This document shows positions 9,806 through 54,849 of a stretch of 64,000 nt of DNA, piece after piece. The notes under the pieces are model-generated. The model saw only the letters and a list, made by a program, of their open reading frames with translations. It was not told where the DNA came from and did not search any database. The position numbers and the translations under genes are program-made. This stretch comes from Streptomyces sp. NBC_01353. Its GTDB lineage: Bacteria > Actinomycetota > Actinomycetes > Streptomycetales > Streptomycetaceae. How positions within the stretch are numbered: the first letter of the stretch is position 1; every line of letters starts with the position of its first letter. The stretch covers positions 7,006,001 through 7,070,000 of the forward strand of contig NZ_CP108352.1 of the NCBI RefSeq assembly GCF_036237275.1. The letters are read 5' to 3'.

Positions 9806-10133
9806 GGGCCGAGGGTATTACGGGCCAAAAGGCCCGATGCGCTCGGCCCCCCCACTCCCCGTAGGGTCGAGAGCCACGAAGCCGCTCGGTGAGGCACGGC
9901 CGGGCGGCGGGCGGGAGGACCGTGGCCTTGACCACAACCCAGACCGTCCCGAGCTCGACGCCGATGTCGTCGTGACCGACCTGTCGGAGGTGTCCGCGCA
10001 GGCCACGGACGGGGGACCGGAAGTCACCGCCGGGGCGTGACGGCCGAGCGAAGTGTCCGCATGGCGTCTCGGCGATGTCCGCTATTCGGACGCCCCCGAT
10101 TCGGCCTGACAGGTGCGTGCTTTACTTGCAGAC
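9806..10133. other. Intergenic region between membrane operon and met leader
   Basis: No convincing gene. A small hairpin CGGGCC-AAAA-GGCCCG (9821-9836) overlaps the -10 of the leftward gene. A short open stretch up to TGA 10040 has streptomycete-like codon use over its last 30 codons but no clear start, and may be a gene remnant. The right end holds regulatory repeats (10054-10091). Confidence 0.4.
10054..10126 (+). promoter_or_regulatory. Promoter region of the met leader with spaced repeats
   Basis: TGTCCGC occurs at 10054-10060 and again at 10076-10082, exactly 22 bp (two helical turns) apart. The second copy is half of an inverted repeat GTCCG-ctatt-CGGAC (10077-10091). TTTACT (10121-10126) is a plausible -10 that ends 7 nt before the leader ATG. 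The repeats lie upstream of the -35 zone, as an activator site might. The binding protein is unknown. Confidence 0.4.
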
Positions 10134-10220
10134 ATGACCACGACGAGCAGCCGCACCCTTGCGACCGAGGCGATCAGCACGCCCGGTGCTCGTTGTATGT
10201 GTCGAATGTGCGCCTTCTGA
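10134..10220 (+). CDS. Cys/Met-rich leader peptide (attenuator) ahead of metNIQ
   Basis: 28 codons from ATG 10134 to TGA 10218-10220. The peptide begins with a Thr/Ser-rich stretch and ends ARCMCRMCAF: three Cys and two Met within six codons (10194-10211), two of the Cys using TGT, rare in this GC-rich genome. The ATG lies 7 nt after TTTACT with no Shine-Dalgarno, so it is read from a leaderless mRNA. Polycysteine leaderless leader ORFs are known as cysteine-responsive attenuators in mycobacteria. Here the mixed Cys/Met run precedes a methionine importer, so I infer that ribosome stalling when Cys or Met is scarce controls metNIQ. Confidence 0.65.
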   Translation: MTTTSSRTLATEAISTPGARCMCRMCAF

Positions 10221-10234
10221 GGGCAACCGACTGT

Positions 10235-10262
10235 GGGGGCACCCCCGGCCGAAGGCTGGGGG
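10235..10262 (+). terminator. Attenuator-like hairpin with competing pairing
   Basis: CCCCCGGCC (10242-10250) pairs with GGCTGGGGG (10254-10262) through a GAA loop, with one G-U pair. The same CCCCC can instead pair with GGGGG at 10235-10239, 14 nt past the leader stop. A ribosome at the stop would cover that GGGGG and allow the downstream hairpin; one stalled on the Cys codons would not. There is no U tract. From memory, similar GC hairpins recur in Streptomyces intergenic DNA, so a generic repeat is the alternative. Confidence 0.5.
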
Positions 10263-10460
10263 ACTTGCGCCCCGAAGCGAGACCCCGACGGCCGAGCCGA
10301 TCCGCCCGCCCTTCCGGCGCCGGACCGTGCCCGCCCCCGCGCACGCGCTGCCTTCCGGCCACCCGCTGGACCAGCCCACTTCGCGCCTGACTGTCCGAAC
10401 GACGAATGCCCCGTGCCCGGCGGACCCCGCGCCGCGCACTCGACAGTGACGGAAACCCCT

Positions 10461-11507
10461 GTGATCACCACTTCGGGCCTGACCAAGGTCTACGAGTCGC
10501 GAGGCCGCCAGGTCACCGCTCTGGACGGCGTCGACCTCCACGTCCGCGAGGGCGAGGTGTTCGGCGTGATCGGCCAGAGCGGCGCCGGCAAATCCTCGCT
10601 CATCCGCTGCGTCAACCTCCTGGAGCGCCCCACCTCCGGCACCGTGACCGTCGACGGCGTCGACCTCACCGCGCTGGCGGCGAACGGCCGCCGCGCCGGC
10701 AAGGACCTGCGCCGCGCCCGCTCCAGCATCGGCATGGTCTTCCAGCACTTCAACCTGCTGTCCTCGCGCACCGTCAAGGACAACATCGAGCTGCCGCTGG
10801 AGATCCTCGGCGTCTCCGGCGCCGAGCGCACCAGCCGCGCCCTGGAACTCCTCGACCTCGTCGGCCTCGCCGACAAGGCCAACTCCTACCCCGGTCAGCT
10901 GTCCGGCGGTCAGAAGCAGCGCGTCGGCATTGCCCGCGCCCTGGCCGGCAACCCGAAGGTGCTGCTCTCCGACGAGGCCACCAGCGCCCTCGACCCGGAG
11001 ACCACCCGCTCCATCCTCCAGCTGCTGCGCGACCTCAACCGGCAGCTCGGCCTCACCGTCCTGCTCATCACGCACGAGATGGACGTCGTCAAGACGATCT
11101 GCGACTCGGCCGCGCTGATGCAGAAGGGCCGGATCGTCGAGTCCGGCACCGTCAGCGAACTGCTCGCCACCCCCGGCTCCGAGCTGGCGGCCGAGCTCTT
11201 CCCCGTCAGCGGCGCCGCCACCGGCCCCGACCGCACGGTCGTCGACGTCACCTTCCACGGCGAGGCCGCCACGCAGCCGGTGATCTCCCAGCTCTCCCGC
11301 ACGTACAACATCGACATCTCGATCCTCGGCGCCGCGATGGACACCGTCGGCGGCAAGCAGATCGGCCGGATGCGGATCGAACTGCCCGGACGGTACGAGG
11401 AGAACGTCGTGCCCGTCGGCTTCCTCCGTGAACAGGGCCTCCAGGTCGACGCCGTCGACGAAGAGACCGCCCCCACCGCGGAACTGGTCAAGGAAGGTGC
11501 CAAGTGA
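10461..11507 (+). CDS. metN: Methionine ABC importer, ATP-binding subunit
   Basis: 348 residues from GTG 10461 (GTG 10446 is an alternative; neither has a strong ribosome site). ABC motifs are intact: Walker A GQSGAGKSS (residues 38-46), signature LSGGQKQR, Walker B VLLSDEATSALD and the H-loop ITHEMD. The C-terminal ~90 residues (ISQLSRTYNIDISILGAAMD...) are the NIL domain, the methionine-binding regulatory domain that shuts transport when internal methionine is high. It drives uptake of methionine with MetI and MetQ. It overlaps metI by GTGA and lies downstream of the leader peptide and hairpin. Confidence 0.95.
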   Translation: MITTSGLTKVYESRGRQVTALDGVDLHVREGEVFGVIGQSGAGKSSLIRCVNLLERPTSGTVTVDGVDLTALAANGRRAGKDLRRARSSIGMVFQHFNLLSSRTVKDNIELPLEILGVSGAERTSRALELLDLVGLADKANSYPGQLSGGQKQRVGIARALAGNPKVLLSDEATSALDPETTRSILQLLRDLNRQLGLTVLLITHEMDVVKTICDSAALMQKGRIVESGTVSELLATPGSELAAELFPVSGAATGPDRTVVDVTFHGEAATQPVISQLSRTYNIDISILGAAMDTVGGKQIGRMRIELPGRYEENVVPVGFLREQGLQVDAVDEETAPTAELVKEGAK

Positions 11508-12172
11508 CCTGGTCGGAGATGCAGCCCCTGCTGGAGCAGGGCACGGTCGACACCCTCTACATGGTCCTGTGGGCCACGCTCGTCACCGTCCTCGGCGGAC
11601 TGCCGCTCGGCATCCTCCTCGTCCTCACGGACAAGGGCGGGCTGCTCCAGAACACCGTGGTCAACAAGGTCGTCGGCGTGATCGTGAACATCGGCCGTTC
11701 GCTGCCGTTCATCATCCTGCTGATCGCGCTGATCCCCTTCACCACCTTCGTCGTGGGCACCTTCATCGGCCCCACCGCGATGATCGTGCCGCTCGCCATC
11801 GGCGCCATCCCGTTCTTCGCGCGCCTCGTCGAGACGTCGGTCCGCGAGGTCGACCACGGACTCGTCGAAGCCGTCCAGTCCATGGGCGGCTCCGTGCCCA
11901 CGATCATCCGCAAGGTGCTGCTGCCGCAGGCGCTGCCCTCGCTGGTCTCCGGAGTCACCACCACCGTCATCGTGCTCGTCGGCTACTCCGCCATGGCCGG
12001 CGCGGTCGGCGGCGAGGGCCTCGGCTCCAAGGCGATCACCTACGGATACCAGCGCTTCGACACCCAGTTCATGCTGGTCACCGTCGTCGTCCTGATCGCG
12101 ATCGTCACCGTCGTCCAGCTCATCGGCGACCTCGCCGTCCGCCTCCTCGCCCGCCGAGGACGCACCGCCTGA
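11504..12172 (+). CDS. metI: Methionine ABC importer, permease subunit
   Basis: 222 residues, GTG start overlapping the metN stop. Five hydrophobic helices and the cytoplasmic EAA loop typical of the family (VDHGLVEAVQSMGGSVPTII, about residues 114-133), which contacts the ATPase. Length matches MetI of other bacteria. It forms the inner-membrane channel as a homodimer with two MetN. Its order between metN and metQ is the usual metNIQ operon order. Confidence 0.95.
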   Translation: MTWSEMQPLLEQGTVDTLYMVLWATLVTVLGGLPLGILLVLTDKGGLLQNTVVNKVVGVIVNIGRSLPFIILLIALIPFTTFVVGTFIGPTAMIVPLAIGAIPFFARLVETSVREVDHGLVEAVQSMGGSVPTIIRKVLLPQALPSLVSGVTTTVIVLVGYSAMAGAVGGEGLGSKAITYGYQRFDTQFMLVTVVVLIAIVTVVQLIGDLAVRLLARRGRTA

Positions 12173-12263: not shown

Positions 12264-13124
12264 GTGCGTAAGAACATCAAGCTCACCGCCGGTATCGCCG
12301 CCACCGCCGCACTCGCCCTGGGCCTCTCCGCCTGCGGCACGTCGTCGGACCCGTCCTCCTCGAAGGACTCGGCCGGCTCCGCCGACAAGGCGCTCGTCGT
12401 CGCCGCGTCCCCGACGCCGCACGCCGACATCCTCAACTACGTCAAGGACAACCTCGCCGCGAAGGAGGGCCTGAAGCTGGAGGTGAAGGAGTTCACGGAC
12501 TACGTCCTGCCGAACACCGCCACCGAGACCGGCCAGGTCGACGCCAACTTCTTCCAGCACAAGCCGTACCTCGACGACTTCAACCTGAAGAACAAGACCC
12601 ACATCGTCCCGGTGGTCAACGTCCACCTGGAGCCCCTCGGCCTCTACTCCAAGAAGGTCAAGGACCTCAAGGACATCAAGGCCGGCCAGACCATCGCCGT
12701 GCCCAACGACACCACCAACGGCGGCCGTGCGCTCAAGCTGCTCGCCGACAACGGGCTCATCACCCTCAAGGACGGCGTCGGCTCCAACGCCAAGCTCTCC
12801 GACATCACGGACAAGAAGGGCCTGGAGTTCAAGGAGTTGGAGGCCGCCACCGTGCCCCGCGCCCTGAACGACGTGGACGCCGCGGTCGTCAACGGCAACT
12901 ACGCCATCGAGGCCAAGCTCAACCCGGCCACCGACTCCCTGGTCCTGGAGAAGGCGGAGGGCAACCCCTACGCCAACTTCCTCGCCGTCAAGGAGGGCAA
13001 CGAGAAGGACGCGCGCGTGCAGAAGCTCGTCAAGCTCCTCAACTCGCCCGAGGTGAAGAAGTACATCGAGGACACCTACAAGAACGGTGCGGTCGTCCCG
13101 GCCTTCGGCACTGCCGCCAAGTAA
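12264..13124 (+). CDS. metQ: Methionine-binding lipoprotein
   Basis: 286 residues from GTG 12264, with AGAAAGAGG upstream. A lipoprotein signal peptide is evident (KNIKLTAGIAATAALALGLSACG, lipobox LSAC with the lipidated Cys near residue 24), followed by a Ser/Asp linker and the NLPA/MetQ fold (VVAASPTPHADIL, GQVDANFFQHKPYLDDF, VNVHLEPLGLYSKK). It captures D- or L-methionine outside the membrane and delivers it to MetI. It lies 91 bp after metI, and a strong terminator closes the operon. Confidence 0.95.
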   Translation: MRKNIKLTAGIAATAALALGLSACGTSSDPSSSKDSAGSADKALVVAASPTPHADILNYVKDNLAAKEGLKLEVKEFTDYVLPNTATETGQVDANFFQHKPYLDDFNLKNKTHIVPVVNVHLEPLGLYSKKVKDLKDIKAGQTIAVPNDTTNGGRALKLLADNGLITLKDGVGSNAKLSDITDKKGLEFKELEAATVPRALNDVDAAVVNGNYAIEAKLNPATDSLVLEKAEGNPYANFLAVKEGNEKDARVQKLVKLLNSPEVKKYIEDTYKNGAVVPAFGTAAK

Positions 13125-26474: not shown

Positions 26475-26549
26475 TGGTGCGCGATACTGGGATTGAACCA
26501 GTGACCTCTTCCGTGTCAGGGAAGCGCTCTCCCGCTGAGCTAATCGCGC
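26475..26549 (-). tRNA. tRNA-Val (GAC), copy 1
   Basis: On the minus strand the 72-nt body folds as a standard cloverleaf: acceptor GCGCGAT/ATCGCGC, D arm GCTC, anticodon loop CTGACAC giving GAC, T loop TTCAATC. The 3' CCA is encoded (26475-26477). Last gene of the array, next to the terminator. Confidence 0.96.
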
Positions 26550-26588
26550 GGGACGGTCCCGAACCATACAGGACCAGCTGTTACTGCG

Positions 26589-26660
26589 TGCGCGATACTG
26601 GGATTGAACCAGTGACCTCTTCCGTGTCAGGGAAGCGCTCTCCCGCTGAGCTAATCGCGC
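26589..26660 (-). tRNA. tRNA-Val (GAC), copy 2
   Basis: Sequence identical to copy 1 over the 72-nt body, anticodon GAC. No CCA is encoded: the next bases are CGC, so CCA must be added by tRNA nucleotidyltransferase. Confidence 0.96.
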
Positions 26661-26699
26661 GGGACGGTCCATGCGGACCGGATCTTCGGTTGTTCTGCG

Positions 26700-26771
26700 T
26701 GCGCGATACTGGGATTGAACCAGTGACCTCTTCCGTGTCAGGGAAGCGCTCTCCCGCTGAGCTAATCGCGC
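26700..26771 (-). tRNA. tRNA-Val (GAC), copy 3
   Basis: Identical 72-nt body, anticodon GAC, no encoded CCA. Its 5' end at 26771 is separated by a single base from the CCA end of tRNA-Cys. Confidence 0.96.
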
Positions 26772-26772
26772 T

Positions 26773-26846
26773 TGGAGGTGGAGACGGGATTTGAACCCGT
26801 GTAGACGGCTTTGCAGGCCGTTGCCTCGCCTCTCGGCCACTCCACC
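26773..26846 (-). tRNA. tRNA-Cys (GCA)
   Basis: Acceptor GGTGGAG/CTCCACC with U discriminator, anticodon loop CTGCAAA giving GCA, T loop TTCAAAT, encoded CCA at 26773-26775. Second gene of the Gly-Cys-Val-Val-Val array. Confidence 0.96.
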
Positions 26847-26885
26847 AGGAGTGAATACGGGGGTTCGGGAAGATCCCCCACATCG

Positions 26886-26958
26886 AGCGGACGACGAGAT
26901 TCGAACTCGCGACCCTCACCTTGGCAAGGTGATGCTCTACCAACTGAGCCACGTCCGC
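26886..26958 (-). tRNA. tRNA-Gly (GCC)
   Basis: Acceptor GCGGACG/CGTCCGC, D loop AGTTGGTA, anticodon loop TTGCCAA giving GCC, T loop TTCGAAT, U discriminator, no encoded CCA. First gene of the array; the promoter lies at 27001-27028. Confidence 0.96.
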
Positions 26959-54731: not shown

Positions 54732-54849
54732 CATGCCCGCTGCGCGGGGCCTCTTCCCCACCCCGCCCTCCCCCCAGACTTCGTCCGGGGGGACCCCCAT
54801 CCCGAACTGGGGGCAAGCCCCCAGACTCCGTACGGCCTGCGGCCGTGTC

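Follow-up and report, generated by a model that had tools for sequence, protein, structure and literature searches.

The sequence analyzed was a 64,000-nt stretch of Streptomyces sp. NBC_01353 (NZ_CP108352.1), referred to below in its whole length as the window. At the locus described here, a 28-codon open reading frame precedes three genes whose products carry, in order, ABC_tran and NIL domains, a BPD_transp_1 domain and an NlpA lipoprotein domain. These domains uphold the assignment of the genes as metNIQ in a preliminary description of this DNA. For the first protein, the best NCBIfam model was MetN, with a score below the curated cut-off (382.9 of 499.7 bits). The features of the locus are as follows.

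10077-10091, unstranded: palindrome GTCCGCTATTCGGAC, a candidate operator upstream of the leader promoter
10121-10126, plus strand: -10 hexamer TTTACT, 7 nt before the leader ATG
10134-10220, plus strand: metL-type leader-peptide ORF of 28 codons, putatively leaderless, as is the S. lividans orthologue (PMC8079986)
10140-10148, plus strand: 5' strand of P1, which closes the predicted three-way junction by pairing with 10188-10196
10152-10163, plus strand: junction hairpin P2
10164-10187, plus strand: junction hairpin P3
10188-10196, plus strand: 3' strand of P1, ending at the first Cys codon
10194-10211, plus strand: candidate sensor codons, the Cys/Met run TGT ATG TGT CGA ATG TGC
10203-10208, plus strand: CGA-ATG core; CGA precedes the last ATG in 172 of 176 leaders
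10219-10224, plus strand: GAGGGC, which overlaps or follows the leader stop and is retained in most relatives, with a TGA or a TAG stop
10233-10262, plus strand: strain-specific inserted repeat that forms the hairpin described earlier, outside the conserved element
10264-10281, plus strand: conserved hairpin CUUGC-GCCCCGAA-GCGAG, with compensatory changes, a conserved loop and no U tract
10413-10439, plus strand: hairpin P5, adjoining the metN ribosome-binding site, with both-side changes in 7 of 8 pairs
10440-10452, plus strand: mini-hairpin P7 (YCG:YGG), extending over the GG of the likely metN Shine-Dalgarno sequence, with both-side changes in 1 of 3 pairs
10461-11507, plus strand: metN, ABC ATPase with NIL domain
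11504-12172, plus strand: metI, permease
12264-13124, plus strand: metQ, NlpA-type lipoprotein

The leader ORF runs from the ATG at 10134 to the TGA at 10218-10220 and would encode the peptide MTTTSSRTLATEAISTPGARCMCRMCAF. Its coordinates, and the position of its ATG 7 nt past a -10-like hexamer, agree with the preliminary description, as does the composition of codons 21-26, where five of the six are Cys or Met codons and TGT occurs twice. The six frames of the window contain 119,255 six-codon stretches free of stops, and of these the leader run alone has at least five Cys/Met codons, the chance level being a mean of 0.1 (20 shuffles of dinucleotide blocks). The leader peptide gave no NCBIfam or Pfam match, and the leader models NF042933, NF042934 and NF042936 did not match it with E-values of up to 10. 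The same genome has two other leaders, MSGTGIALVSRRHVDLGRMSSAMCPVR and MVSHDVSEVTPGSVLLVARLHVDLCRLASAM (L264:1215-1298 and L265:1961-2056), that pass the cut-off of NF042934 (putative leader peptide); they precede what we take, from family searches and the S. coelicolor gene order, to be the sulfite reductase and cysM operons. The sulfur genes of this genome would therefore carry at least two kinds of leader.

To compare the locus among relatives, MetN was searched in 150 genomes of the same genus, 143 of which gave matches at E 1e-100. The upstream regions of metN were compared for 140 loci of the genus and nine from outside it; the same-genus set excludes G008, G074 and G106, whose MetN matches were truncated, as well as a second copy present in G002. 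A regular expression recovered the leader in 136 of the same-genus loci and in none of the nine from outside the genus (L141-L149). The leader of L010 differs in its fifth residue and hence falls outside the expression, L135 and L138 carry a leader of another version that was recovered by an RNA model, and L128 was unusable, with only 152 nt of upstream sequence. The leader was thus found upstream of metN in all 139 usable same-genus loci. Across the family, a covariance model of leader plus hairpin (R1) matched in 167 of 249 genomes and in 12 of 17 Streptomycetaceae genera. When genomes were drawn from the whole class, 29 of 296 had a match, 28 of them from the same genus and one from another family (G622), whose leader has a GTG start, ends in TRCRRMCGC and has metN downstream. 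We followed up 19 genomes in which leader or metN had earlier been missed. Fourteen of them had no MetN match at 1e-85; in 13 of these, R1 gave nothing better than E 0.1, and the remaining one is a 79%-complete assembly with the leader RNA at a contig end. Four of the five with metN have an R1 match just upstream, weak in two cases (E 0.04 and 0.10); the fifth, G177, lacks one. A further 42 loci were included (L193-L234), of which L230, with MTTTNHRILATEATAPGVRRMCRMCA, is outside the counts. In some other genera the N-terminus of the peptide is very different (MTATTTCTPTGTAPAG...), and the ending R-M-C is present in 40 of the 41 further leaders.

The composition of the leader end is conserved as well. 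Within the last 12 codons, Cys is present in 177 of 177 leaders (1 to 5 each) and Met in 176, so that the alignment of metNIQ upstream regions proposed in the preliminary description bears out both the ORF and its codons. The single Met-less leader, L132, has four Cys and ends in ARCRCCTCAR. Individual sensor positions are not invariant; of the 108 leaders with 28 codons, 30 have Arg at position 26 and 10 have it at position 21. The CGA at 10203-10205 is a rare Arg codon (two of the 38 CGN codons in metNIQ are CGA), and it is also retained in genera that lost the consensus pairing of the same-genus sequences.

The existence of the element is already known from S. lividans TK24, where metL (SLIV_29928), encoding MSTTSDRTPATEATTTPGARCMCRRMCAF before metNIQ, has been published as a methionine attenuator with a start that is leaderless by RNA-seq and with several hairpins and no typical terminator (PMC8079986). 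The leader peptides of L055 and L066 are identical to that of metL. The leader described here resembles metL in its position before metNIQ, its type of peptide, its leaderless start and the lack of a clear terminator. It differs in what has been reported of it: metL was described as methionine-dependent in one strain, and the passages on metL drawn on here, including its entry in a table of eight attenuators, name several methionines and threonines, not cysteines, and give no cysteine role, conservation, junction or metN-site hairpin. Beyond that paper, we found no description of the leader in the open-licence literature searched, and neither its wide conservation, nor Cys codons as sensors, nor the folded RNA was found described there. 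The reach of the leader, its cysteine codons and its RNA architecture are what the present analysis adds. In the preliminary description a mixed Cys/Met leader before a methionine importer had been considered new; the mixed character is real and conserved, whereas the element as such had been published as S. lividans metL. The view of the S. lividans authors (PMC8079986), a methionine-only attenuator in which the cysteines are incidental, agrees with the methionine-importer context and with the Met codons of 176 of 177 leaders. We consider it unlikely, since it leaves the conserved Cys without explanation, which extends to all 177 leaders and is fourfold in the Met-less L132. On the data, cysteine, methionine or both may be sensed.

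The reading frame of the leader was examined by the distance from the ATG to the CG[AC]ATG core, which was used instead of ORF length modulo 3, a circular test. This distance is a multiple of three in all 176 leaders having the core, comprising 135 of 135 same-genus leaders with eight different lengths (L132 being without core) and 41 of 41 divergent leaders with seven lengths. The distances from the core to the next conserved hairpin span all three frame classes (78, 28 and 25 of 131, and 15, 3 and 12 of 30). The same-genus leaders in this test were picked as ORFs, and the divergent ones came from loci matched by the RNA model and were selected with Cys near the end; without the latter condition, the same ORF was the sole candidate in 41 of 41. 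A one-base insertion 3' of the core turns TGA into TAG, and a stop is retained. Because the frame is conserved, together with the TGA/TAG stop and the fixed spacing to the -10 hexamer, we infer that the leader ORF is translated. With its codons for amino acids of the pathway, it has the makeup predicted for leader-peptide attenuators in general, a short ORF of this kind before the operon. An alternative would be a riboswitch-like RNA on which the ORF is fortuitous. The third codon bases of the ORF are conserved and the RNA has a strong covarying fold (see below), as such an RNA would have; it is nevertheless most improbable, considering that the frame is held in 176 of 176 leaders across eight and seven spacings, that the stop persists as TGA or TAG, that the start is fixed 6-7 nt from the -10 hexamer, and that Rfam gave nothing in 9900-10600, neither at the gathering score nor up to E 10.

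A TT[TA]A[CA]T hexamer precedes the ATG in all 136 leaders, ending 6 nt (68 leaders) or 7 nt (68 leaders) away. Together with the S. lividans orthologue (PMC8079986), this spacing points to a leaderless start, as is characteristic of the mycobacterial Cys-responsive leaders. Upstream of the promoter, GTCCG-N5-CGGAC occurs at most 110 nt from the leader in 84 of the 136 loci, the window's included, and a stricter palindrome pattern has 10 sites in the own genome, the reversed control giving 0. A DNA-binding protein acting on the upstream region, with the leader of little effect, could make use of the palindrome at 10077-10091, which adjoins the promoter. Oxidative stress in S. coelicolor was reported to raise metN, metI and metQ 5.2-, 3.5- and 2.3-fold together with sulfate-to-cysteine genes, a change at the mRNA level that was ascribed to SenS/SenR, for which a site was predicted upstream of metN (PMC4991794). 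The joint rise with the cysteine genes fits the sulfur-sensing attenuator favoured below; that it is seen in mRNA and ascribed to SenS/SenR counts against it. As the main source of control, such a protein is quite unlikely, because the conservation of leader and RNA would be left unaccounted for; moreover, the neighbours of the other strict palindrome sites in the genome, judged by eye, include no recognizable sulfur genes or regulon.

From 68 diverse sequences of the genus, RNAalifold predicts that the RNA of the ORF contains a three-way junction, with P1 formed by nt 7-15 and 55-63 of the leader and with P2 and P3 as its hairpins. The variable codons 6, 8-9 and 14-15 lie mostly in unpaired parts of the junction. 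In the window's own sequence, nt 1-67 of the leader fold into the junction at -28.9 kcal/mol (z -3.58; 0 of 200 shuffles). On a shorter alignment (A1), P2 and P3 were retained and P1 was not. For 63 sequences, 96.7% of the cells are paired, and both-side changes occur in 14 cells and six pairs (0 of 500 shuffles); the slide control at -2 also gave six pairs, but 8 cells instead of 14, and 38% pairing. With 52 distinct sequences reaching other genera, 93.5% of the cells are paired and 27 show both-side changes (0 of 500 shuffles, best slide 10), 19 of the 27 being one and the same replacement of G-C by A-U, which may have occurred just once. Among the most divergent leaders, single-sequence folds place a stem near the Cys codons in, for example, L195, L203 and L207, and show no clear stem of this kind in others such as L209 and L215. 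The support from covariation for a conserved three-way junction with compensatory changes is thus good rather than decisive, since the structure shuffles ignore relatedness and coding. A1 contained 63 of the 68 sequences, omitting L028, L087 and L092 (hairpin pattern not found) and L079 and L129 (long rows). Alignments A2 and A3 used every second of the 68 (34); A2 was without L129 and L134 and had its divergent leaders restricted to the ATE/PG[VIL]R type, A3 was without L194, L205, L228 and L230 (metN start not recognised or another family), and the family fold was without L194, L228 and L230.

Between leader and metN, the preliminary description had proposed an anti-terminator/terminator switch, in which GGGGG (10235-10239), starting 14 nt past the leader stop, would pair with CCCCC (10242-10246) and thereby compete with a GC-rich hairpin at 10242-10262. 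The hairpin does fold as described. Across columns 10233-10259, however, 90-100% of 135 relatives have gaps, the 21-mer has 15 copies in the own genome at up to two mismatches (reversed control 0), and a loose hairpin pattern applied to the first 80 nt past the stop matched only in the window. We accordingly discarded the GGGGG/CCCCC pair as belonging to a dispersed repeat that was inserted in this strain. From the proposed attenuation logic, the conserved in-frame Cys/Met leader before metNIQ stands and the switch does not. Another copy of the GC-rich hairpin repeat is present in the window at 54771-54791 on the minus strand (CCCCCGGACGAAGTCTGGGGG).

Conserved structures are also predicted at the metN initiation region. 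P5 and P7 together have eight pairs and 37 cells with both-side changes (0 of 500 shuffles), with 86% of the cells paired; the slide control at -2 gave nine pairs and 39 cells, with 45% paired and a covariation score of 0.19 versus 0.26. RNAalifold on the 68 same-genus sequences further pairs UGUCGA of the leader (10200-10205) with UCGACA (10440-10445) at 0.79-0.99 per pair. This leader-metN pairing was rejected: it shows no compensatory change, its flanking pairs are lost in other genera, and the duplex energy is no better than that of shuffles (p 0.2 for the window; mean z -0.65 for 68 sequences and -0.53 for 39). When the Cys codons were masked in a fold model of 49 sequences, the Shine-Dalgarno sequence was not freed (0.41 free, versus 0.38-0.40 masked), the strand upstream of it became free, and masking at the first Cys codon slightly closed the metN start region (0.50 to 0.43). 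Of the two alternative RNA structures expected of a leader-peptide attenuator, the analysis thus yielded conserved structures and no mutually exclusive pair, with the leader-metN pairing at chance and the Shine-Dalgarno sequence not released by masking. Control of translation, preferred in the preliminary description, would agree with the covariation seen around the metN start, and both the masking of the Cys codons and the leader-metN pairing speak against it. Since the likely Shine-Dalgarno sequence is flanked and in part covered by the metN-site structures, we prefer control of metN translation.

The same leader could instead act by premature termination, which would take place at the hairpin 10264-10281 or be brought about by Rho acting on the C-rich spacer, in both cases blocked by a ribosome stalled near the stop. 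This output would be compatible with the sensing half of the preferred explanation, and the two are not exclusive. The hairpin shows compensatory changes and its loop is conserved, the spacer is rich in C (C 0.46 and G 0.29 over 136 loci), the changes of metNIQ in S. coelicolor were at the mRNA level (PMC4991794), and Rho has been proposed for mycobacterial cys leaders (PMC1262725). We nonetheless regard termination as doubtful. The hairpin is followed by acccc in place of a U tract, and a terminator scan of 9950-10600 gave nothing terminator-like downstream of the leader, the sole site being inside the ORF (10176-10190); the intrinsic terminator of a classical attenuator, a hairpin with a U tract before the first gene, is thus absent. 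Besides, the excess of C over G in the spacer (C-minus-G) reaches no more than the 92nd percentile of the window, and the hairpin sequence is missing in several relatives of one sister genus (L197, L213, L214, L216). We also discarded a second possible anti-structure, in which GAGGGC would pair with the hairpin's 5' arm; its column counts were inconsistent (two pairs at 80 of 136, a third at 4 of 136), which is not a fair test because the one-base insertion shifts the register.

The reading that we favour, with a probability of about 0.6, is a leaderless Cys/Met-sensing attenuator of metNIQ whose output is probably at the initiation of metN translation. The mRNA would begin at or beside the leader AUG, and the ribosome would therefore enter without a Shine-Dalgarno sequence, open the three-way junction (codons 3-21) and then read the Cys/Met run just upstream of the stop. 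With Cys-tRNA and/or Met-tRNA charged, the ribosome would pass and terminate, the leader and the metN initiation region would refold and expression would be low; with a sulfur amino acid scarce, stalling on the run would favour another RNA state and metNIQ would be up. The ORF, its frame and Cys/Met codons, the position of the promoter, the linkage to metN and the conserved structure in the ORF and at the metN start are observed in the sequences; translation and stalling, the amino acid sensed, communication from one end of the element to the other and metN initiation as the output are inferred. A more specific version, which we put forward tentatively, is that Cys-tRNA and Met-tRNA are both tested by the frame, that the three-way junction controls ribosome entry at metN, and that the element is a separate leader class present in most sampled Streptomycetaceae genera.

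Among known systems, the polycysteine leaderless attenuators of mycobacteria (Canestrari et al. 2020) resemble the metN leader in that a short leaderless ORF, with Cys codons close to its stop, lies ahead of sulfur genes. Judging from their names, the models NF042933, NF042934 and NF042936 derive from that work; unlike the peptides they represent, the metN leader has no match to them, contains Met as well as Cys codons and appears to have its ORF folded into a junction. The cys/cbs leaders of Actinobacteria (Seliverstov et al. 2005, PMC1262725) likewise carry their Cys codons close to the stop and lack a conserved terminator, but precede other genes in other lineages, and the parts of that survey drawn on here report no conserved RNA regulatory structures upstream of methionine operons. 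If the favoured reading holds, methionine import in Streptomyces would be set by the supply of both sulfur amino acids via one leaderless ORF, and the RNA structure and the codons of the leader would have been selected together. Cysteine attenuation would then extend from mycobacteria to antibiotic producers, a leader class missed by the NCBIfam and Rfam models used here would be added, and the element would provide a test bed for the action of terminator-less leaderless leaders, which was left open by the survey of Seliverstov et al. (PMC1262725). Elsewhere in the window, a cluster of five tRNA genes, three of them with equal scores, is located on the minus strand at 26478-26958.
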